A stretch of 64,000 bases of DNA, taken from assembly GCF_030182585.1 (NCBI RefSeq), contig NZ_JARXOW010000001.1, positions 2,294,001-2,358,000 of the forward strand. The letters are read 5' to 3'. The translations under genes and the position numbers were made by a program. The notes below the pieces were generated by a model, which did no database searches, was not told where the DNA came from, and worked only from the letters and a program-made list of their open reading frames with translations. Positions 1,491-59,058 of the stretch are shown here, piece after piece; position 1 is the stretch's first letter, and each line of letters begins with the position of its first letter. This stretch comes from Pedobacter faecalis. GTDB lineage: Bacteria > Bacteroidota > Bacteroidia > Sphingobacteriales > Sphingobacteriaceae.

Positions 1491-3812
1491 ATGAGCAATC
1501 ACACCAAGATCATCGCAGCAGAACTGAATCTGACCGTTCAGCAGATTGAAGCGACTACCTCGTTACTAGATGAAGGGGCAACGGTACCCTTCATCTCCCG
1601 ATATCGGAAAGAAATGACCGGTAGTCTGGATGAAGTTCAGATAGCGTTGATCCGCGACCGGGTGCAGCAGCTGAGGGATCTTGATAAGCGCCGCGAAGCC
1701 ATTTTAAAAGCACTGACGGCATTGGATAAGCTGAGCCCCGAACTTGAAAAACAGATCAATGCAGCAGTAACCATTGCAGAAATAGAAGACATTTACCTGC
1801 CTTATAAGCCCAAGCGCAAAACACGTGCTTCCGAGGCAAGAAAGAAGGGTCTTGAACCCTTGGCAACACTGATATTTCAGCAGGGCAAACAGGATCCTGT
1901 AGCTGAAGCTGAAGGATTTATCAATGTCGACCTTGGCGTACCTGCTGCCGAGGAGGCTCTGGCCGGTGCACGCGACATCATAGCAGAATGGATAAATGAG
2001 GACGCCGAGGCCCGCTCCCGTATGCGCGCCTACTATCAGCAGCACGCCGTGATCAGGTCGGCCGTAGTTAAAGATAAGGCCGATACCGGCATTAAATACA
2101 AAGACTATTTTGAATGGTCTGAAACTCTGAAGTCTGCGCCCTCCCATCGCATTCTGGCAATGCGGAGAGGCGAACACGAAGAGGTGCTTAAATTGGAGAT
2201 AGCGCCTGAAGAAGCGGGCGCTATCGATATCCTGAACAGACTTTTTATAAAGTCTGATCATGCCAATTCCAGACAAGTAAAACTGGCTTTGGATGACAGC
2301 TTCAAGCGTTTGCTGGGTCCTGCCATGGAAACCGAGGTCAGAAACTTTTCCAAGGAAAAAGCCGATCGGGAGGCCATTCATGTATTTGCCGAAAATGCCC
2401 GTCAGCTTTTGCTGGCCGCACCCATGGGGCAGAGAAACGTACTTGCAATAGATCCTGGATTTAGAACCGGCTGCAAGGTCGTTTGCCTCGACAAACAGGG
2501 CAAATTACTTAAAAATGCAGCTATATTTCCGCACAACGGGCAGCGTGGCGTAGCAGAGGCCGCAAGTACAATTAAAAGGCTCTGTGAAGAGCATGACATA
2601 GAGGCAATTGCAATTGGTAACGGTACTGCTGGCAGGGAAACCGAAGCTTTCATACGACAGCTCGGTCTGCAAGGCGTTACCATAGTAATGGTCAATGAAA
2701 GCGGCGCTTCAATATACTCCGCCTCAGATGTTGCCCGGCAGGAATTCCCCGATTACGATGTCACTGTGCGTGGGGCGATATCAATTGGCAGAAGGCTCAT
2801 GGACCCACTCGCCGAACTGGTCAAGATAGATCCGAAGTCAATCGGAGTTGGGCAATATCAGCATGACGTAGATCAGAATAAATTACAGCAATCTCTGGAT
2901 GATACGGTGATGAGCTGCGTGAATGCCGTAGGCGTCGAATTGAATACCTCATCCAAACAGCTGTTATCCTATGTCTCCGGGCTAGGCCCGCAACTGGCGC
3001 AAAATATCGTGAATTACCGGAATGAGCATGGCCCTTTTAAGAATCGCGAGAGTCTAAAAAAAGTTCCTCGCCTGGGAGAAAAAGCTTTCGAACAGGCCGC
3101 AGGATTTCTGAGAATAAGAAATGCCGACCATGTGCTGGACTCTAGTGCCGTGCACCCCGAGCGTTATGCGCTGGTTGGAAAAATGGCACGCGACCTGAAC
3201 TGTACCGTGGCACAGCTTATCCGCGACCAGGCCCTGCGCAGGCAAATTAAACTTGAGCAGTATGTAACTGAAGAAACCGGCCTTCCTACGTTGAACGATA
3301 TCATAGCCGAACTCGACAAACCTGGCCGGGATCCTCGTGAACAGTTTGAGGCGTTCAGTTTTACAGAAGGGGTTAATAGTATAACGGATTTGAAGCCCGG
3401 AATGAAATTGCCCGGTATTGTAACCAACATCACCAATTTCGGCGCTTTTATAGATATCGGTGTGCACCAAGACGGTCTCGTACACACCAGTTTGCTTTCC
3501 GACAAGTTCATCACGAACGCTTCCGAAGTCGTTAAAGTGCACCAAAAGGTTGAGGTGACAGTAGTTGAGGTAGACGTAGTTCGCAAACGGATCTCCCTTT
3601 CAATGAAGCCAGAAGCGCAGGCTAAGCCGAAAGCCAGATCTGAGAGGCATCAAAACAAGACGCCGCAGAGCAACAGCACCAGGCCTCACAGAAGCCCTGG
3701 CAAAGCACCGGCAAAACCTCAGCAACAGCGAAAATCGGGCGGAAAAGAAAAGCTTCCCGACGGCGACCTACAATTAAAGCTTGCCGCATTGAAAGATCTT
3801 TTCGGGAAGTAA
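1491..3812 (+). CDS. tex: Tex-family RNA-binding transcription accessory protein
   Basis: This is a Tex/Spt6-like nucleic-acid-binding protein of the cytoplasm, thought to act in transcription and RNA metabolism. Domain order is visible: an N-terminal helical Tex region with the conserved EGATVPFISRYRKE stretch, a YqgF/RNase H-like domain beginning around LAIDPGFRTG, helix-hairpin-helix elements around the SGLGPQLAQNIV stretch, and a C-terminal S1 domain with the usual NFGAFIDIGVHQDGLVH signature. A basic, low-complexity tail of about 70 residues (K/R/Q/P-rich) precedes a short final helix. I chose ATG 1491 (MSNHTK) because homologues start close to this point and an A-rich stretch precedes it; ATG 1476 in frame adds five residues and is the alternative. 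The gene converges with the Lrp gene 3 bp away. Confidence 0.93.
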   Translation: MSNHTKIIAAELNLTVQQIEATTSLLDEGATVPFISRYRKEMTGSLDEVQIALIRDRVQQLRDLDKRREAILKALTALDKLSPELEKQINAAVTIAEIEDIYLPYKPKRKTRASEARKKGLEPLATLIFQQGKQDPVAEAEGFINVDLGVPAAEEALAGARDIIAEWINEDAEARSRMRAYYQQHAVIRSAVVKDKADTGIKYKDYFEWSETLKSAPSHRILAMRRGEHEEVLKLEIAPEEAGAIDILNRLFIKSDHANSRQVKLALDDSFKRLLGPAMETEVRNFSKEKADREAIHVFAENARQLLLAAPMGQRNVLAIDPGFRTGCKVVCLDKQGKLLKNAAIFPHNGQRGVAEAASTIKRLCEEHDIEAIAIGNGTAGRETEAFIRQLGLQGVTIVMVNESGASIYSASDVARQEFPDYDVTVRGAISIGRRLMDPLAELVKIDPKSIGVGQYQHDVDQNKLQQSLDDTVMSCVNAVGVELNTSSKQLLSYVSGLGPQLAQNIVNYRNEHGPFKNRESLKKVPRLGEKAFEQAAGFLRIRNADHVLDSSAVHPERYALVGKMARDLNCTVAQLIRDQALRRQIKLEQYVTEETGLPTLNDIIAELDKPGRDPREQFEAFSFTEGVNSITDLKPGMKLPGIVTNITNFGAFIDIGVHQDGLVHTSLLSDKFITNASEVVKVHQKVEVTVVEVDVVRKRISLSMKPEAQAKPKARSERHQNKTPQSNSTRPHRSPGKAPAKPQQQRKSGGKEKLPDGDLQLKLAALKDLFGK

Positions 3813-3815
3813 GAC

Positions 3816-4289
3816 CTACAGCTCTATCTGACGTTTGATACTCTCTTCAAGGGAGATCAAGGTCTCTGTACGCTGTATGCCAGCCACCGCCTGTATCTCT
3901 TCATTCAGTACATGCCGGAGGTGACTGGTGTCGCGGCAAATGATTTTAGCGAACATGCTATACGCACCAGTTGTATAATGCAACTCCACAACTTCTTTGA
4001 TCTTGCTCAACTGTGCCACAGCATCTTTATACTGAATGCCCTTTTCCAGATAAATACCTAGGAATGCAGTAATATCATACCCTGCTTTTTGCGGATCGAT
4101 GATAAGGTGTGAGCCTTTAATAATGCCCATTTCGTGAAGCTTTTTCATTCTCACGTGAATGGTCCCGCCTGAAACGATCAGATCTTTTGCGATTTCAGTA
4201 TAGGGTTTGGTCGCATCGGCCATCAACTGCTTCAGAATCTCAACATCGAGGTTATCAATTTCTAAATTTTGACTTTCTTTTTTTAGCAT
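3816..4289 (-). CDS. Lrp/AsnC family transcriptional regulator
   Basis: This 157-residue DNA-binding protein has the standard Lrp layout: an N-terminal winged HTH (LDVEILKQLMADATKPYTEIA then a recognition helix near residues 35-55) and a C-terminal RAM/AsnC ligand-binding domain (GYDITAFLGIYLEKG through TTGAYSMFAKIICRD). Such proteins form octamers and respond to amino acids. It is transcribed away from the tandem tRNA-like genes, and its probable promoter overlaps theirs, so joint or mutual control is possible (inference). The effector cannot be read from sequence; annotation as Lrp, AsnC or AlsR-like would be guesswork. Confidence 0.9.
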   Translation of the reverse strand: MLKKESQNLEIDNLDVEILKQLMADATKPYTEIAKDLIVSGGTIHVRMKKLHEMGIIKGSHLIIDPQKAGYDITAFLGIYLEKGIQYKDAVAQLSKIKEVVELHYTTGAYSMFAKIICRDTSHLRHVLNEEIQAVAGIQRTETLISLEESIKRQIEL

Positions 4290-4335
4290 CGTTTTTATAT
4301 TTGATAATGATATGCAATATTAATTAATAATATAA

Positions 4336-4369
4336 CAAAAATAAAATTAAATGTTTATAATATTTGCAA
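4336..4369 (-). promoter_or_regulatory. Candidate promoter of the Lrp/AsnC gene
   Basis: Read on the minus strand, TATTTTTG (4336-4343) fits TAnnTTTG, with a TTG 23 nt upstream (4367-4369). The leader would be about 40 nt. It overlaps the -33 element of the opposing tRNA promoter. Confidence 0.4.
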
Positions 4370-4394
4370 CACTTTAAGGTTGTTATTACATTTG
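4363..4394 (+). promoter_or_regulatory. Promoter of the tandem tRNA-like genes
   Basis: TTTG (4363-4366), a 20-nt spacer and TACATTTG (4387-4394) give an essentially perfect Bacteroidota vegetative promoter, the best one in the window. Transcription would begin near 4400, about 40 nt before the first tRNA-like gene. Confidence 0.65.
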
Positions 4395-4442
4395 TATCAA
4401 GCAAGCAACTAAAAATAGTTCTTTAAAGACTTGCAAACATAC

Positions 4443-4554
4443 TGTAGGGTGGTGAAATTGGCAGACACACCTCCTTGTCTCGGTGGTGGAGAGTTCAGGA
4501 AATACTGGTTTTGGTACCAACTGCTCCATGAAGGTTCGACTCCTTCCCCTACAG
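4443..4554 (+). tRNA. tRNA-like gene 1: class II body, anticodon GTC, 43-nt variable region
   Basis: A full cloverleaf can be drawn. The acceptor is TGTAGGG/CCCTACA with discriminator G (4554). The 3-bp D-stem GTG/CAC encloses AAATTGGCAGA, the D-loop of leucine tRNAs. The anticodon arm is CCTCC-TTGTCTC-GGTGG (4470-4486) with GTC at 4477-4479 and a T-T mismatch at 29-41. The T-arm is GAAGG-TTCGACT-CCTTC (4530-4546). No CCA is encoded. The variable region (4487-4529) is 43 nt, far above the usual class II maximum of about 24, and is closed by TGGAG/CTCCA then AGTT/AACT. No register of the anticodon loop gives a Leu anticodon. GTC with G73 and C38 matches known AspRS identity elements, so an Asp isoacceptor is possible. 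An automatic scan may call it Leu, Asp, undetermined or pseudo. Confidence 0.7.
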
Positions 4555-4610
4555 CAATTAAGTTGTATTAACTACCTAAATATACATACTTAATACGTAC
4601 ATATACATAC

Positions 4611-4752
4611 TGTTGGGTGGTGAAATTGGCAGACACACCTTCTTGTCTCGGTGGCGGGGATCAATGGATAAACGCAGTTTATGGGTTGACCACAAATTAA
4701 TTTTTGAACTGTAGCTAACTACCCCTTGGAGGTTCGAATCCTTCCCCAACAG
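4611..4752 (+). tRNA. tRNA-like gene 2: class II body, anticodon GTC, 73-nt variable region
   Basis: This is a second copy, 56 bp after the first. The acceptor is TGTTGGG/CCCAACA with discriminator G (4752). The D-arm is identical to copy 1. The anticodon arm is CCTTC-TTGTCTC-GGTGG (4638-4654), again with GTC (4645-4647). The T-arm is GGAGG-TTCGAAT-CCTTC (4728-4744). Relative to copy 1, acceptor pair 4-69 changes from A-T to T-A, and other stem changes keep pairing (C-G to T-G, A-T to G-T), which argues against simple decay. The variable region (4655-4727, 73 nt) is closed by GGGG/CCCC and contains TCAA/TTGA around a 6-bp ATAAAC/GTTTAT hairpin plus further short hairpins. No CCA is encoded. 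Function in translation is unproven. Confidence 0.65.
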
Positions 4753-4787
4753 CCAGTTTTTTTATGAATAATAAGTTAGTTAAAATC

Positions 4788-4817
4788 GAGTAACCCTGGA
4801 TGGGGTTACTCTTTTTT
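4788..4817 (+). terminator. Terminator of the tRNA-like transcription unit
   Basis: GAGTAACCC (4788-4796) pairs with GGGTTACTC (4803-4811), followed by six T. The hairpin overlaps the last codons of the convergent amidohydrolase gene and could work in both directions. Confidence 0.8.
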
Positions 4818-6125
4818 CATTTTAGGCACTGCCCGATATTTGTCACTGAACTTTTTGTCCAATTGCTTATGGAGATTGTCAAGATTGATCTCGCGGCCCT
4901 GAATGAAGGCTTGCTCCACACGGTTGGTGCGCATATCAAGTGCATCTCCGGCAGATATAAAAAGCGTCGCGTCCTTTCCAATCTCCAGACTTCCTGTTTT
5001 GTCGGCTATTCCCAGTATCTGTGCAGCGTTTAAGGTAATCGTCTGAAGCGCCCGCTCTTTATTCAATCCCCAGGCCGATACGGTTCCCGCCATAAACGGC
5101 AGGTTTCGCTGCTGCCAGTATCCTTCAACGCTCAGGGCCACGGGTATACCCGCATCCATCAGCATACCCGCCTTTCTGTACGGTAGGTTTACGTCCTCAT
5201 CCGAACCGGACGGCAAGACATGAGGCTGACCGATCACTACAGAAACACCGCTAGATTTCAAAAAGTCAGTAATCAGGTAGGCTTCATCGGCACCGGTGAT
5301 CACAGGGGTTATGTTAAACTTTTTGGCAAATTTTACAGCATCCATGATATCTGTTTGACTATTTGCTGCGATGAACAGCTGTTGTGTACCACTGAAGAGC
5401 CGTTTCATCGCTTCAAGCCTGGTATTCACCACCTCGGGCTTGGTCATATCTGCATAGGCCTTTGCTTCAATAAACAGCTGTTCAAGTTCAGCTATCCGGT
5501 TCCTGCTCACTTCTTTTATCGCGTCGGCTGCCGAGTTGCCACGCAAATTGTTTCCCCGGAGCCTTGGCGTCGCCGGCCAGTCCACATGCATGGCACCATC
5601 AGTGCGTATCGCTGCATCCTCCCAGTTCCAGGCGTCAAGCTGTACAACAGAAGAACTACCCGTCACAAGGCCACCCTGCGGCGTGATCTGCGCCATAAGC
5701 ACTCCGTTACTCCGCAGTGTCGCCGGAACCTTCGAATCAGTATTATAGGCCACCAACGACCGGATATGCGGATTAAAGTTTCCTATTTCAGAAAAATCAA
5801 GCGTCGCTTTTACAGACTCAAATTCTGCCAGCCCCAGGTTAGTAAGCGGAGCAATGAAGCCCGGATAAATATGTTTTCCGTTCGCATTAATCAATGTAGC
5901 TCCGGTCGGGTCAATCCGCACGACTGTAGCATCACCTACACCGATGATCTTTCCTCTTTCGAAGATCAGGTAGCCATTGTCAATAGTGTTACCATTGCCT
6001 ATATGTAGCATCGCCCCCATAATAATCACCTTCTTATCTTGGGGCGGTGCCGGTGAGATGTTTGCCTGAGCCATACATAACGAACTTAACGAGGCAAATA
6101 ACAACGTATATAAATACCTATTCAT
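4806..6125 (-). CDS. Exported amidohydrolase-fold protein lacking the HxH metal motif
   Basis: A 439-residue protein with an N-terminal signal peptide (hydrophobic segment ending ...LCMAQA), so probably periplasmic. The fold is that of the amidohydrolase/imidazolonepropionase-like superfamily: an N-terminal beta region with an 'A..G.GN...NG.ILIE.GKI' pattern and a C-terminal 'LNAAQILGIADKTGSLEIGKDATLFI' type segment. Where active members read PGLIDxHxH, this one reads PGFIAPLTNLG (near residue 85), so the first metal-binding histidines are absent and it is probably not a canonical metallohydrolase. It is the second gene of a two-gene operon, overlapping the 908-residue amidohydrolase by 8 bp, and may be its partner subunit (inference). 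The substrate is unknown. Confidence 0.82.
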   Translation of the reverse strand: MNRYLYTLLFASLSSLCMAQANISPAPPQDKKVIIMGAMLHIGNGNTIDNGYLIFERGKIIGVGDATVVRIDPTGATLINANGKHIYPGFIAPLTNLGLAEFESVKATLDFSEIGNFNPHIRSLVAYNTDSKVPATLRSNGVLMAQITPQGGLVTGSSSVVQLDAWNWEDAAIRTDGAMHVDWPATPRLRGNNLRGNSAADAIKEVSRNRIAELEQLFIEAKAYADMTKPEVVNTRLEAMKRLFSGTQQLFIAANSQTDIMDAVKFAKKFNITPVITGADEAYLITDFLKSSGVSVVIGQPHVLPSGSDEDVNLPYRKAGMLMDAGIPVALSVEGYWQQRNLPFMAGTVSAWGLNKERALQTITLNAAQILGIADKTGSLEIGKDATLFISAGDALDMRTNRVEQAFIQGREINLDNLHKQLDKKFSDKYRAVPKMKKE

Positions 6126-8844
6126 GTGAGTGATCCCCTTTCAAATCTTCTTCGTAAAACTCATCGCCTATCGACTCGCAATGAAACAACCTCGAACGTT
6201 GCGCCTGCGGACGTTGGGTCTTGTTACCCTTATTTTTACTCTCCTTCATTTTCCCCATAAGCCTTTCCCGCTCCTCCAACTGTCGACGCCTCAACTGAGC
6301 ATCACGATCTATATCCCAGTACGCAGCACCATCTACAAAGGTCATCTCTGCCTTCGCATAAACCGACAGAGGATGGTCTGACCATACCACCAGGTCCGCA
6401 TCTTTCCCCGGTTTCAAACTCCCCACTCGGTCATCAATGTGCAGCATTCTGGCCGGATTCAGGGTAACAAACTTCAGCGCATCGATTTCACTGACTCCAC
6501 CATAAAGTACCGCCTTCCCGGCCTCCTGATTTAAGCGGCGCGCCATTTCGGCATCATCTGAATTGAACGCTGTTGTAATACCGACGTTGTGCATAATCTT
6601 GCCATTGTAAGGGATAGCTTCGGCAACTTCCATCTTATACGCCCACCAGTCTGAAAATGTAGAAGCATTGATTCCTCTCGCTTTCATTTTATCGGCCACC
6701 TTGTAACCCTCCAGAATATGCGTAAAAGTATTGATCCGGAAACCAAGACTATCAGCCACCTTCATGAGCATATTGATTTCAGACTGAACATAGGAATGAC
6801 AAGTGATAAAGCGCTTGTTGTCCAGAATTTCAACGATGGCATCAAGCTCGAGGTCGCGGCGTACGTTACTGCCCTTCTTCGTCATTGCCTCCTTGTACGC
6901 CTTTGCGCGCGTAAACTGATCTACAAAAACCTGCTCTACTCCCATACGCGTCACCGGAAACCGTGCACCCGTACCAAAATTGCTTTGCTTCACATTTTCA
7001 CCCAGGGCAAATTTGATAAAATGATCACCGTCTGTGTATTTTAGTTCTTCCGGCAGCTTCCCCCAGCGCAGTTTGATCAGCTGCGCCTGTCCACCCACCG
7101 GATTAGCCGAACCATGAAGTATATGAGAAGTTGTAACACCGCCAGCCAGCTGCCGGTAGATATTAATATCCTCGGAATTGATAATATCCGCGATGCGAAC
7201 TTCCGCAGAAGAAGCCTGGGATCCCTCGTTGATTCCGCCTGTCCCTGCAATATGCGAATGCTCGTCGATCAGCCCCGGAGTAATGTGCTTACCTGTGGCA
7301 TCAATAACCCGGGCCCCTGATGCGTTCAATCCTTTTCCTATCGCGCTTATCCGGCCGTTCTGAATAAGCACGTCAGCATTCTGTAAGACTCCTTCCTGCT
7401 CGTTTGTCCAGACTGTCGCGTTCCGGAGCAGCACATGCTCCATTGTTGGTACAGTGGTATTACCGAAGGCTGTAAAAGGATAAATCATCGGCTCCCTTGG
7501 ACGAATCATAGCGGCTGCCAGCGTTGCTGGAGCCACACTCGCCGAATCCTTTTTAGCCGAATCATCCGCAAACACAAGAATGTGTCGCTTACCCTGCACC
7601 CAGTTCTCCTGGATAACATTGGCTCTCGTGAACAAACTGTCCGAAGTAATGATAAAATTTGCCAGCTTTCCTTTATCCAGCGTACCCACCTTATCTGAAA
7701 CGCCAATCATCGCTGCAGGGATCTCGGTGAGCGCCAAAAGCGCCTGCTTTTTAGATAAACCGTGATCGATCGCAAGTAAAAGGTTCATCCAAAAATCTTT
7801 TATATCGTCTAATCCGTGCCCAGTTATAGCGAACTGGATCCCAGCCTTTTCCACAATACCAGGATTAGCCGGCGCCATCTCCCAGGCCTTCATCTGAGCG
7901 AGGGTGATATGTCTGCTTTCCAAGGTATCATCCACGTCATAGGCCTTAACAAAATTTAACGGCACGATCAAAGCTGACCCTGTAGCTTTCACGGCGTCAA
8001 TCCGCTGGTATTCGTCGCCGCTGGTTTTAATCAGGTAACTGCGGCCAAATTCTTTCGCTATTTTGTGGGCCCGCAATACATTTTGCCAACCGTCTGCTTC
8101 AAAGACCTGAGGCAACACCTGTTGTCTATTAAACTCCTGCAGAGAAATATTAAATTCCGAGGTCTGTTTACTGTACCACAAACCATCGTAATAGGTTTGT
8201 CGGAGCAGTGCTATGGATCCCATCAGCGAAGTAGGATAATCGTTCTGGGAGCTCCCCTTACTGAAAGAGAAATTGGCCGCTGCCCGATCCTTAAGTATGG
8301 TGATGTTCTCCTTGTCGTCAGAAAGGGTTACCACTGTCGACGTCCCACGCACAATACCATCACGGTTTACCGCATGTACCGTTCCAAATCCAATTTTACG
8401 CAAGTCAGCAGCCGCTCTATTATCGGCCGCAAAAAAGGTATGTGCATTTGTTTCCGGCCTTATTGCTTCGTTCCATGCGTAGGCACCCCGCTTGGTCGAC
8501 AAGAAAATGGATTGCCTGCCGGCACTAACGTTTCGCGCGGCGTCGGGCAGACCGTATCCGGTAAATGCATCGATTAATGAAGGATATATAAACCTCCCTT
8601 TCAGATCAATCACTACATATCCCTTTGGCACCGCTAAGTCAGATCCCACTGCTTGTATTGTCTGCCCTTTTATAAGCATAGTGCCATTTGTAATAGCCCT
8701 TGAGGCGCTTACAACAATATTGGCATTGGTAAAGGCATACAACCCAGGCCTGATATCATAAGAACCGTTTACCGGATAGGTTTGCTGAGCGCATAGATGC
8801 ATTGCAGACAATGCAAATGCCAGCAGAAATAGCGTTTTTTTCAT
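6118..8844 (-). CDS. Exported tandem amidohydrolase (908 aa), active site in C-terminal half
   Basis: This long protein has a signal peptide (cleavage likely after ...AMHLCA) and two amidohydrolase units. The N-terminal unit (about residues 25-430) lacks the HxH motif: the equivalent stretch reads IYPSLIDAFTGYG. The C-terminal unit (about 465-870) has TPGLIDEHSHIAG with H529 and H531, and ends with the usual LKPGKDADLVVWSDHPL segment, so it should be the catalytic half. A charged K/R/Q-rich tail follows. Substrate unknown; exported relatives act on peptides, N-acyl amino acids or ring amides. It is first in an operon with the 439-aa degenerate paralogue. Both resemble a Bacteroidota gene pair often annotated simply as amidohydrolase. 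Confidence 0.87.
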   Translation of the reverse strand: MKKTLFLLAFALSAMHLCAQQTYPVNGSYDIRPGLYAFTNANIVVSASRAITNGTMLIKGQTIQAVGSDLAVPKGYVVIDLKGRFIYPSLIDAFTGYGLPDAARNVSAGRQSIFLSTKRGAYAWNEAIRPETNAHTFFAADNRAAADLRKIGFGTVHAVNRDGIVRGTSTVVTLSDDKENITILKDRAAANFSFSKGSSQNDYPTSLMGSIALLRQTYYDGLWYSKQTSEFNISLQEFNRQQVLPQVFEADGWQNVLRAHKIAKEFGRSYLIKTSGDEYQRIDAVKATGSALIVPLNFVKAYDVDDTLESRHITLAQMKAWEMAPANPGIVEKAGIQFAITGHGLDDIKDFWMNLLLAIDHGLSKKQALLALTEIPAAMIGVSDKVGTLDKGKLANFIITSDSLFTRANVIQENWVQGKRHILVFADDSAKKDSASVAPATLAAAMIRPREPMIYPFTAFGNTTVPTMEHVLLRNATVWTNEQEGVLQNADVLIQNGRISAIGKGLNASGARVIDATGKHITPGLIDEHSHIAGTGGINEGSQASSAEVRIADIINSEDINIYRQLAGGVTTSHILHGSANPVGGQAQLIKLRWGKLPEELKYTDGDHFIKFALGENVKQSNFGTGARFPVTRMGVEQVFVDQFTRAKAYKEAMTKKGSNVRRDLELDAIVEILDNKRFITCHSYVQSEINMLMKVADSLGFRINTFTHILEGYKVADKMKARGINASTFSDWWAYKMEVAEAIPYNGKIMHNVGITTAFNSDDAEMARRLNQEAGKAVLYGGVSEIDALKFVTLNPARMLHIDDRVGSLKPGKDADLVVWSDHPLSVYAKAEMTFVDGAAYWDIDRDAQLRRRQLEERERLMGKMKESKNKGNKTQRPQAQRSRLFHCESIGDEFYEEDLKGDHSHE

Positions 8845-47508: not shown

Positions 47509-49254
47509 ATGCTTAGAACGACAACTTGCGGTGCTTTAAACCTTGAGAATCTGGGTCAAGAAGTGATTCTGTGCGGCTGGGTGCAAAAATCCAGGGACTT
47601 GGGCGGAATGACCTTTATCGATATTCGCGACCGGTATGGGATTACCCAGCTGGTGTTCAATATGGACGACAACCGTGAACTGTGTGAAGCGGCCCGGAAC
47701 CTTGGCCGTGAATTCGTGATAAAAGTGACCGGTACTGTTGTTGAGCGTTCTAATAAGAACCTGAAGATACCTACCGGCGAAATCGAGATCAAAGTTTCGG
47801 CGCTGGAAATTCTGAATGCCGCTAAACTTCCGCCTTTCATGATTGATGATGAAACAGATGGCGGTGATGACCTGAGAATGAAATACCGCTACCTGGACCT
47901 GAGAAGGAACCCGGTAAGAAATAATATGGTATTGCGTCACAGAATGGCGCAATCTGTACGTCGTTATCTGGACGGCCTGGACTTTATAGAGGTGGAAACC
48001 CCGGTTCTGATTAAATCGACACCGGAAGGCGCACGTGACTTTGTGGTGCCAAGCCGCATGAATGCCGGTGAATTCTATGCCTTGCCGCAATCGCCGCAAA
48101 CATTTAAGCAATTGCTGATGGTTTCTGGTTTCGACCGTTATTTTCAGATTGTGAAGTGCTTCAGGGATGAGGACTTACGTGCAGACAGGCAGCCGGAATT
48201 TACGCAGATCGATTGTGAAATGTCTTTTATTGAGCAGGAGGATATTCTGAACACATTTGAAGGCCTCATCCGGACGCTATTTAAGGAAATTAAAGGCATT
48301 GATTTGCCGGAAGTGCCACGTATGCAGTACTCGGATGCGATGAGATTGTACGGATCTGACAAGCCAGACACGCGTTTCGACATGAAGTTCGTTGAGCTTA
48401 CTGAACTTGTTAAAGGCAAAGATTTCCCTGTATTTGAGCAGGCTGAACTTGTGATCGGAATCAACGCCAAAGGGTGCGCCTCTTATACCCGTAAACAATT
48501 GGACGAGCTGACTGATTTCATCAAACGTCCGCAGATCGGTGGTACTGGTCTGATTTATATGCGCCATAATGAAGATGGTTCCCTGAAGTCTTCGGTGGAT
48601 AAGTTTTATGACGAGACTGAGCTTAAAAAATGGTCGGAAGCCATGAATACGGAGGCGGGCGACCTGGTGCTGATCATGGCAGGCATCAAAGACAAGGTCC
48701 GTAAGCAGCTTAGCGAACTGCGGCTTGAAATGGGCAGCCGGCTTGGACTACGCGATAAAAATGCGTTCAGCGCGTTGTGGGTGCTTGACTTTCCTTTACT
48801 GGAGTGGGACGAAGAGACCGAACGTTATCATGCCATGCACCACCCCTTTACGTCACCAAAACCCGAAGATATCCCTCTGCTTGATACGCAGCCAGGAGAG
48901 GTAAGGGCGAATGCGTACGACATGGTGCTGAATGGCACGGAGATCGGGGGCGGATCTATCCGGATTCACGATCGTGGGTTACAGGCACTGATGTTTAAAC
49001 ATTTGGGCTTTAGCCCGGAAGAGGCACAAAAGCAATTTGGCTTTCTGATGGATGCATTTGAATATGGCGCGCCGCCACACGGGGGTATTGCATTTGGATT
49101 TGACCGGTTGTGTTCGCTCTTTGCGGGACTGGACACGATCAGGGATGTGATCGCCTTTCCGAAAAACAATTCAGGAAGAGATGTGATGATAGACAGCCCT
49201 TCGGCTATAGACGAAAAACAACTGACCGAATTAAAGATAAGAACAGCTTTATAA
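47509..49254 (+). CDS. aspS: Aspartate--tRNA ligase
   Basis: A class II aminoacyl-tRNA synthetase of 581 residues. I chose ATG 47509 ([10 protein letters not shown]): upstream open frame lies before the promoter. The N-terminal OB anticodon-binding domain shows [26 protein letters not shown]. The catalytic core has [13 protein letters not shown] (motif 1), [18 protein letters not shown] (motif 2) and the C-terminal [12 protein letters not shown] (motif 3), with the bacterial GAD insertion between. AspRS recognises G34, U35, C36, C38 and G73, features that the odd tRNA-like pair at 4443-4752 carries. Confidence 0.95.
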
Positions 49255-57396: not shown

Positions 57397-59058
57397 ATGA
57401 GTGAGGAAAGATCATTGAACTTTATTGAAGAGATCATTGAAAACGATTTAAAGAGGGGCCGGTACGAAACCTTAATAACCCGCTTCCCTCCGGAACCGAA
57501 CGGTTATCTCCACATCGGACATGCAAAAGCCATTTGTCTTAATTTCGGCCTTACTCAGAAATACGGAGGCTATACCAATCTCAGATTTGACGACACAAAC
57601 CCAGTGACGGAAAAGACAGAATATGTGGACAGCCAGCAAAACGATATAAAGTGGTTGGGCTTTCAGTGGAAAAATGAACTTTATACCTCTGACTATTTCG
57701 ATACTTTATACGCTTTCGCAGTAAAACTCATCGAAAAAGGACTGGCCTATGTAGACGATAGCACGGCAGACGAGATTGCTGAACAGAAAGGCACTCCGAC
57801 TGAACCGGGGAGAGACAGCCCTTACAGGACCCGAACAATTGCAGAGAATCTTGATCTTTTCAGCCGGATGAAAGCAGGCGAATTCCCTGACGGAGCATGC
57901 ACGCTTCGCGCAAAGATTGACATGGCAAGTCCGAATATGCTAATGCGCGATCCGATCTTATACCGGATCAAACACGCGGATCACCATCGTACAGGAAACA
58001 AATGGTGCATCTATCCTATGTATGATTTCGCTCACGGGCAAAGTGACAGCATTGAATCAATTACCCATTCTATTTGCACACTCGAGTATGTTGCGCACCG
58101 TGAATTGTACGACTGGCTGATTGAGCAATTGGACATCTTCCCGTCTAAACAATACGAGTTTGCCCGACTAAACCTGTCATATACCGTAATGAGCAAGCGT
58201 AAGCTTCTGCAGCTTGTAAATGACGGTGTGGTAAGTGGCTGGGACGATCCGCGCATGCCTACGATAAGCGGTCTGAGACGCAGAGGATATACCCCGGAGA
58301 GCATTCGCGATTTTTGTGAAAGAATCGGGATCGCAAAACGCGAAAACATCATAGAGTTAAGCCTCCTGGAATTCTGTATCCGGGAACATCTTAACAAAAC
58401 CGCCACCAGAGTGATGGCCGTGATGGACCCAATTAAACTTGTTATTACCAATTACCCTGAAGACAAAGAGGAGATTTTAATTGGCGAAAACAATCCGGAG
58501 GCGGAAGACAAAGGCGGGACCCGGGAAATACCATTCAGTAATACGTTATGGATCGAGCGTGAAGACTTCATGGAAGTCCCGGCAAAGAAATGGTTCCGGT
58601 TAGCCCCGGGCTCCATGGTCCGGCTGAAGCATGCATATATTGTGAAATGCGAGGATTTCAAAAAAGATGACAACGGCAACCTTACAGAAGTCCACTGTTC
58701 TTACATCCCGGAGTCTAAAAGCGGGTCTGACACAAGCGGTATTAACGTAAAAGGCACCATCCACTGGGTAAGCGCTTCTCACGCAAAAAAGGCAGAAGTG
58801 AGGCTCTACGATCGTTTGTTCACGGTTGAGTCGCCAGACGCGGAAGCGGGAGATTTTAAGGACTACCTTAACCCGAACAGCGTTGAGGTACTCCATGACG
58901 TATACATTGAACCTTTTCTGGCTCAGGCTTCATCCGACGTACGCTACCAGTTCATCCGCAAGGGATACTATTGCCTCGACAGGGACGCTACTGCCGAAAA
59001 GCCCGTTTTCAACCGTACTGTCTCTCTCAAGGACGCCTGGTCTAAAGCCAATAAATAG
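57397..59058 (+). CDS. glnS: Glutamine--tRNA ligase
   Basis: A class I synthetase of 553 residues. The HIGH motif is PNGYLHIGHAKAI near residue 34, and the KMSKS equivalent is YTVMSKRKL. The C-terminal beta-barrel anticodon-binding domains follow. Distinguishing it from glutamyl-tRNA synthetase: it has the GlnRS-type C-terminal barrels and DDTNPVTE. Its presence means Gln-tRNA is made directly rather than by transamidation. Confidence 0.95.
   Translation: MSEERSLNFIEEIIENDLKRGRYETLITRFPPEPNGYLHIGHAKAICLNFGLTQKYGGYTNLRFDDTNPVTEKTEYVDSQQNDIKWLGFQWKNELYTSDYFDTLYAFAVKLIEKGLAYVDDSTADEIAEQKGTPTEPGRDSPYRTRTIAENLDLFSRMKAGEFPDGACTLRAKIDMASPNMLMRDPILYRIKHADHHRTGNKWCIYPMYDFAHGQSDSIESITHSICTLEYVAHRELYDWLIEQLDIFPSKQYEFARLNLSYTVMSKRKLLQLVNDGVVSGWDDPRMPTISGLRRRGYTPESIRDFCERIGIAKRENIIELSLLEFCIREHLNKTATRVMAVMDPIKLVITNYPEDKEEILIGENNPEAEDKGGTREIPFSNTLWIEREDFMEVPAKKWFRLAPGSMVRLKHAYIVKCEDFKKDDNGNLTEVHCSYIPESKSGSDTSGINVKGTIHWVSASHAKKAEVRLYDRLFTVESPDAEAGDFKDYLNPNSVEVLHDVYIEPFLAQASSDVRYQFIRKGYYCLDRDATAEKPVFNRTVSLKDAWSKANK

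Follow-up and report, generated by a model that had tools for sequence, protein, structure and literature searches.

In the tRNA-dependent route to asparagine, as set out in the available part of PMC4206432 for Deinococcus, Thermus and Bdellovibrio, AspRS acts first and GatCAB then relies on a U1-A72 pair; the route cures an E. coli asparagine auxotroph and is linked to genomes in which asparagine synthetases are few or absent. The same portion of that source names 18 genera, Bacteroidetes included, which possess AsnRS, GlnRS and GatCAB and no asparagine synthetase, and proposes that they synthesize asparagine on tRNA-Asn. As regards the RNA substrates, the accessible text of PMC9976931 states that (i) AspRS is driven by the anticodon and G73; (ii) in bacterial tRNA-Asp, conservation is strict at G1-C72, called crucial, and at G2-C71; (iii) U1-A72 confers amidation of Asp-tRNAAsn; and (iv) G1-C72 and U20a block amidation in tRNA-Asp.

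Here we analyse a stretch of 64,000 nucleotides from Pedobacter faecalis (the window; contig NZ_JARXOW010000001.1, positions 2,294,001 to 2,358,000), in which two adjacent tRNA-like genes lie divergent from a gene for an AsnC-like regulator. The likeness to tRNA-dependent asparagine synthesis lies in U1-A72, in an AspRS that would act first, and in a link to genomes of that kind. In contrast to that route, the carrier would be a separate RNA with an Asp anticodon, an altered loop and a giant variable arm, not tRNA-Asn, and the AspRS looks discriminating if judged by a residue that we take to mark the enzyme type. The arrangement also recalls the asnC-asnA gene pair of E. coli in that an AsnC-like regulator is divergent from a putative maker of asparagine; an AsnRS-like synthetase holds that position in two relatives (L153, L155), whereas in the window the divergent partner is the RNA pair. 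With class II tRNA-Leu the RNAs share the D-arm sequence and a long variable arm, but they differ by a GUC loop, G73, U1-A72 and a variable region of 38-99 nt. Like tRNA-Sec and the allo-tRNAs treated in the available part of PMC7609411 they are non-canonical class II tRNAs; unlike these, they have an ordinary acceptor of 7 bp, a T stem of 5 bp and no UCA, and are proposed to be non-decoding.

Two tRNA-like RNAs in the window

Copy A occupies positions 4443-4554 of the forward strand (tRNA positions 1-73, CCA not encoded), with GTC at 4477-4479 and a variable arm of 43 nt at 4487-4529. Copy B, on the same strand at 4611-4752, is followed by CCA in the DNA and has a variable arm of 73 nt (4655-4727) with a GGGTTGACCAC motif. 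Both copies have the acceptor TGTNGGG/CCCNACA, a Leu-like D arm, the anticodon loop TTGTCTC (GTC, C38), the discriminator G73 and TTCGA in the T arm. Every detail of the preliminary description of this tandem that was checked (coordinates, D arm, loop, G73) is present in the sequence, and so are the two variable-region lengths and the swap from A4-T69 in one copy to T4-A69 in the other. At its third pair, the anticodon stem has a T-T mismatch in both RNAs; a standard pair is found there in 40 of 61 distinct family copies. Across the compared stretch the pair is letter-identical to that of Pedobacter deserti.

A TAnnTTTG box, presumably the -7 type promoter box of Bacteroidota, is located at 4387..4394 (+), 56 nt upstream of copy A. 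Such a box was found at most 110 nt upstream of 42 of 62 family copies, as compared to 4.4 expected from single-base shuffles. Downstream of copy B, a terminator-like hairpin of the intrinsic type with a T run is present on the forward strand (4788..4817, hairpin 4788-4811); two such sites were found on both strands against 0.5 expected. The next gene, encoding an amidohydrolase-like protein, lies on the reverse strand (4806-6125), and its opposite orientation ruled out, in the window, that the RNAs are the leader of a downstream gene.

Neither copy was called by ARAGORN, Rfam gave no match for the pair (window positions 3000-6500, E<=1), and the 41 RF00005 matches of the genome do not include it. 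Single-sequence folding energies were unremarkable (z of 0.60 for copy A and -0.16 for copy B), and imposing the cloverleaf cost 1.5 and 5.1 kcal/mol, respectively, relative to the free minimum.

Distribution of the RNA family

A DNA search of 35 further genomes of the genus recovered the RNA in 34. The sole exception, an 84% complete genome (G006), yielded a match of 31 nt. A pattern of 34 bases covering the D arm and the anticodon loop matched 63 stretches in named genomes whose titles include Pedobacter, Pelobium, Solitalea, Hufsiella, Pararcticibacter, Desertivirga and Nubsella, among others. Homologues were also sought with models built from family copies. Model R1, derived from 29 copies, detected clear members in at least 49 of 295 genomes of the class, where a genome was scored RNA-positive if a match of 105 nt or longer with E<=1.9e-13 was listed for it; this count is a lower bound because strict filters were on, and one member (G264) was missed. 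Weaker matches of about 80 nt occurred in most genomes, and the three that were read by eye are Leu tRNAs. With model R2 (E<=1e-16), members were detected in 31 of 296 genomes sampled across the phylum. Two of these 31 genomes (G565, G573) belong to another class; each carries three tandem copies adjoining a divergent AsnC gene of 59% identity. Judged by these searches, the two window RNAs are members of a conserved, widespread bacterial RNA family.

Some members depart from the common form. Triple tandem copies are located at L264:4976-5406 (G565), L265:4172-4623 (G573) and L110:1241-1609 (G242). A 76-nt member on the reverse strand at L204:1501-1576 (G093) combines the anticodon ATC with a small variable loop and is called tRNA-Asp(atc) by ARAGORN; its genome also has asnA and gatB. 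The member at L143:4625-4756 carries a large D-loop insertion.

Covariation and variable arm

In an alignment of 62 copies (61 distinct), the stems of the cloverleaf and the variable arm were paired in 96.7% of cells. Two-sided changes in paired positions amounted to 228 cells, as compared to 55.6 (sd 11.0) in shuffles, none of 500 of which reached 228, and to 11-29 when the partners were slid out of register; 20 of 31 pairs changed on both sides somewhere. As this alignment had been fitted to the model, a MAFFT alignment of 29 copies served for a second count, which gave 54 two-sided changes against 13.7 in shuffles. RNAalifold, unaided, predicted the same helices. At the level of sequence, the cloverleaf with its giant variable arm is supported by covariation, and the view taken at first from wobble and base-pair changes between two copies, that the RNAs are under selection, agrees with this count. 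The covarying stems extend into the variable region, and an intron destined to be discarded would not need them.

The variable region measures 38-99 nt among the 62 copies. Its internal loop, which we take to resemble a UAA/GAN loop, is near invariant (T180 in 58/62, the next two A's in 62/62). The motif GGTTGACCA is common to 19 of the 62 copies, every one with a variable region of at least 68 nt, and occurs in the window within 4655-4727; in these long arms it is a possible site of protein or tertiary contact.

Identity elements and decoding features

U1-A72, G2-C71, U35, C36, C38 and G73 never vary in the 62 copies, and G34 varies once (61/62), so that the AspRS identity elements named for the window pair extend to the family. 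No Leu anticodon occurs in any of the 62 loop sequences, as had been noted for the two copies. Decoding tRNAs have U33 and a purine at position 37. In the family, U33 is present in 53 of 62 copies (otherwise eight G and one C), and position 37 is a pyrimidine in 55 (T 50, C 5, G 7). Position 10 is variable (G 23, A 24, T 15). The genome of P. faecalis encodes an ordinary tRNA-Asp(gtc), in which the first pair is G1-C72; its tRNA-Asn and tRNA-Gln have U1-A72.

Thus, the family has the GUC anticodon, C38, G73 and G2-C71 of tRNA-Asp and lacks three features of a decoding tRNA-Asp, namely G1-C72, U33 combined with a purine at 37, and a short class I variable loop. It differs from tRNA-Sec by an acceptor modelled with 7 bp and not 8, and by GUC in place of UCA. 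The pair expected of a GatCAB substrate, U1-A72, is present in 62 of 62 copies, and gatCAB, scored by gatB, is present in 43 of 43 RNA-positive genomes. This pattern suggests that selection keeps the features of an AspRS substrate and a GatCAB substrate combined and releases the requirements of the ribosome. The replacement of G1-C72 by U1-A72 implies that charging with aspartate may be weak, which counts against a function as aspartate carrier. Two points go beyond the preliminary description, the invariance of U1-A72 as a GatCAB determinant and the AsnC-like nature of the neighbouring regulator, and both point to asparagine.

The AsnC-like neighbour and its divergent slot

The regulator gene (3816..4289, reverse strand) is divergent from the RNAs. 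Its product has AsnC as best NCBIfam match (E 2.3e-51) with 173.6 bits, which is below the equivalog cut-off of 227, and E. coli AsnC (2cg4) as nearest solved chain (E 2.6e-37; next chain 1.7e-22). We therefore call it AsnC-like, as it falls below the cut-off for filing as AsnC. The Lrp/AsnC synteny seen in the window recurs in the family: an AsnC-like gene accompanies the RNA at 93 of the 100 loci that were read (some genomes being included twice, and most loci coming from the same taxonomic order as the window), while the genes beyond it vary. Of the seven loci lacking asnC, five are truncated at a contig or slice boundary; in the other two (L069, L095) the absence is real. In the class, an AsnC ortholog (E<=1e-30) was found in 48 of 49 listed RNA-positive genomes versus 42 of 246 RNA-negative genomes (p=7e-29); the RNA-positive genome G195 had no AsnC match at E<=1e-30. 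Layouts counted by hand from coordinates in the 49 genomes comprised 32 divergent neighbours, 14 with RNA and asnC apart, two at contig ends and one without AsnC. In ten further loci, asnC was beside the RNA in six and not in four. Inspection of 12 loci with RNA and asnC apart or at contig ends did not reveal a partner that is constant across families.

The region upstream of asnC was then surveyed in 20 genomes that have a strong ortholog (E<1e-48) and no R1 match. In five of them, an asparagine synthetase gene is divergent from asnC: an AsnRS-like AsnA in L153 and L155 (326 and 332 bits, cut-off 309), AsnB in L154 and L156 (512 and 640 bits, cut-off 499), and in L157 an AsnB-type protein whose 492.8 bits fall just below 499, the piece being truncated by the slice edge. 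Three genomes of the family to which the window belongs (L150-L152) have lost the RNA, and by eye a trailer (near TAGGTTTATAATTGGTTAG) and a hairpin like those that come after the RNA in relatives remain; this conserved trailer may have a role of its own. A shortened, altered RNA (L163:970-1082, reverse strand; 28.9 bits with R1, 33.7 bits with R2) is located upstream of asnC in a further genome; its acceptor and T arm still conform to the family, and its D and anticodon parts are altered. The remaining 11 slots held no RNA, trailer or asparagine synthetase, and contained other genes, other possible structures or nothing obvious. Other possible tRNA-like stretches were seen upstream of asnC in L158 and L166.

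Co-occurrence with GatCAB

GatCAB is needed for Gln-tRNA if GlnRS is missing and for Asn-tRNA if AsnRS is missing; where both synthetases are present, it should be redundant. P. faecalis has its own GlnRS (57478..59046, forward strand; TIGR00440, 752.3 bits), which makes GatCAB unnecessary for Gln-tRNA. Genes for asnB-type proteins, gatB, asnA, asnS and glnS were searched in 80 of the 295 genomes. These 80, which are not a random sample, comprised 43 of the 49 listed RNA-positive genomes (the six left out are all less than 90% complete) and 37 RNA-negative ones: 19 of the 20 with strong AsnC (E<1e-48; G271 was left out for its completeness) and 18 picked by hand. AsnRS was found in 79 of 80 genomes (exception G138), and gatB in 43/43 RNA-positive versus 21/37 RNA-negative genomes. 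Genomes without GlnRS hold gatB anyway and say nothing on coupling.

GlnRS scored above the cut-off in 43 of the 80 genomes, all with AsnRS; a GlnRS fragment in G185 fell below the cut-off and was scored as absence. Among these 43, gatB was present in 25/25 RNA-positive and 2/18 RNA-negative genomes (p=5.8e-10). As the genomes are related, such per-genome p-values overstate independence; counted per family, the ratio was 8/8 versus 1/11 (p=1e-4), with the window's own family in both groups. One of the two exceptions, G264, has an RNA of 195 nt (109.7 bits) that the R1 search had missed. If it is counted as RNA-positive, a reassignment made only after it had stood out as an exception, the numbers become 26/26 versus 1/17 (p=6e-11). 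G093 with its 76-nt member and G164 with an altered member were left as RNA-negative; both lack GlnRS, and the comparison is therefore unaffected. Within the window's own family, all seven RNA-positive genomes have gatB and none has asnA; all three RNA-negative genomes are without gatB, and two have asnA. In genus g16, G224 has both RNA and gatB, and G050 has neither.

The other exception, G046, encodes a fusion of 1106 amino acids (L200:1304-4624, forward strand), consisting of GatB followed by an AspRS reading RDHG. By eye, the fusion directly follows a GatA-like frame (501-1304). The genome also holds an ordinary AspRS (RDKG), AsnRS and GlnRS, and contained no RNA match beyond Leu-sized ones. 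Like the RNA, it would represent a tRNA-dependent machine for converting Asp to Asn within the phylum, and it does so in a genome that possesses both GlnRS and AsnRS; unlike the RNA, the solution here is a protein with an RDHG AspRS.

AspRS type and other sources of asparagine

The enzyme proposed to charge the RNA is encoded at 47512..49242 on the forward strand (TIGR00459, 728.5 bits), reads RDLG at the marker site and is the single AspRS match of the genome at E<=1e-60. We take His at this site to denote a non-discriminating AspRS. The 26 genomes with RNA and GlnRS have one AspRS match each, with Leu (12), Lys (8), Phe (5) or Gln (1) and in no case His at the marker. If the marker holds, tRNA-Asn is not a substrate of these enzymes, and this would account for why a separate RNA with GUC is needed.

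At E<=1e-20, neither asnA nor asnB-type matches were found in three RNA-positive genomes, those of P. faecalis (96.4% complete), G036 (100%) and G195 (99%). One or more asnB-type matches, true AsnB and asnB-like paralogs pooled, occurred in 40 of 43 RNA-positive genomes, and asnA in G223; the RNA is thus often not the sole possible source of asparagine.

Proposed function and alternatives

We consider it probable that the RNA is a non-decoding, tRNA-derived carrier on which asparagine is made, AspRS loading aspartate and GatCAB amidating it. An ordinary, discriminating AspRS would charge it with aspartate by virtue of GUC, C38 and G73, and GatCAB would accept the Asp-RNA owing to U1-A72 and form Asn-RNA. 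Exclusion from the ribosome would be due to the changed anticodon loop together with the giant variable arm, and asparagine would thereby not be inserted at Asp codons. Asparagine would be released by hydrolysis and become available to AsnRS and metabolism; no candidate for a releasing enzyme was found. Expression would be tuned to asparagine supply by the divergent AsnC-like regulator. Charging, amidation, exclusion from decoding, release and AsnC control are what we infer from the RNA family and its structure, the invariant identity set, the links to asnC and gatB, and the asparagine synthetases in the slot of some relatives. This comes close to the earlier suggestion of an aminoacyl donor outside the ribosome. 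Several observations speak against the proposal: the change from G1-C72, the asnB-type matches in most RNA-positive genomes, the 14 of 49 genomes in which RNA and asnC are apart, the lack of an AsnC match in G195, the 11 slots with neither RNA, trailer nor synthetase, and the short-armed member of G093 with A34. With somewhat less assurance, we favour the broader view that an RNA gene does the work of an asparagine synthetase: in many Bacteroidota free asparagine would be formed on a non-decoding tRNA of hybrid tRNA-Asp/tRNA-Asn identity reserved for this purpose, under an AsnC-like switch as found beside the protein synthetases of relatives, and the sole job of this RNA would be to carry a metabolite during its synthesis.

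The constancy of the AsnC-like neighbour and the near-invariant internal loop of the variable arm (both A's in 62/62) would also suit a sensor, charged and amidated, whose charged state reports the supply of Asp, Asn or Gln to AsnC or another protein via the variable arm. We regard this as unlikely, since the slot in five relatives is taken by asparagine synthetases, not by other regulators, and since sensing does not require GatCAB per se, yet gatB accompanies the RNA in 25/25 genomes with GlnRS.

Species of tRNA-Gly donate to the cell wall in staphylococci, and the non-decoding design and the coupling with gatB would fit an RNA that passes asparagine (or aspartate) to a wall precursor, lipid or peptide. 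Such a donor is rather improbable, as no constant transferase neighbour was seen in the RNA loci read and asparagine synthetases replace the RNA beside asnC.

Still less probable is that the RNA is a bystander and that, as in Bdellovibrio, a non-discriminating AspRS charges ordinary tRNA-Asn, on which GatCAB then makes asparagine. The tRNA-Asn route proposed in the available part of PMC4206432 for genera, including Bacteroidetes, with AsnRS, GlnRS, GatCAB and no asparagine synthetase is in line with it, as are U1-A72 in the tRNA-Asn of P. faecalis and the fusion of G046, which seems to use this route. However, gatB tracks the RNA (25/25 versus 2/18), and the marker His, on our assumption about its meaning, occurs in 0 of 26 AspRS of genomes with RNA and GlnRS and is found in the G046 fusion.

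GTC, C38 and G73 would fit two further readings raised in the preliminary description, namely that the RNA serves translation as an unusual Asp isoacceptor or diverts anticodon nucleases as a decoy. Either is barely credible given the loss of U33 in 9/62 copies, the pyrimidine at position 37 in 55/62, U1-A72 and the presence of an ordinary tRNA-Asp(gtc), and would leave the linkage to asnC and gatB unexplained.

Novelty and significance

If the RNA is an asparagine carrier, the chemistry would be that of the known indirect pathway, and the new part is the carrier; the pathway may alternatively be classed as a variation on tRNA-dependent asparagine synthesis. We know of no precedent for a carrier whose dedicated function is the synthesis of a free amino acid. 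A literature search, which covered part of the literature, found no description of the RNA or of a separate RNA carrier; the RNA is also absent from the available part of PMC7609411, and a term search of PMC13092985 gave no match. Because it departs from tRNA-Asp, tRNA-Leu and tRNA-Sec in the features tested, matches nothing in Rfam and has no precedent known to us, we rate the RNA as new in category, with a function that is proposed.

If the proposal is true, a noncoding RNA replaces a metabolic enzyme in bacteria whose relatives use a protein for the same job, and it becomes possible to test directly whether an amino acid is made on an RNA reserved for that purpose. The retention of GatCAB in some Bacteroidetes would then have an explanation; according to the available part of PMC4206432, these bacteria possess both GlnRS and AsnRS and lack any known asparagine synthetase. 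The RNA would also be a natural example of a chargeable tRNA held out of translation.
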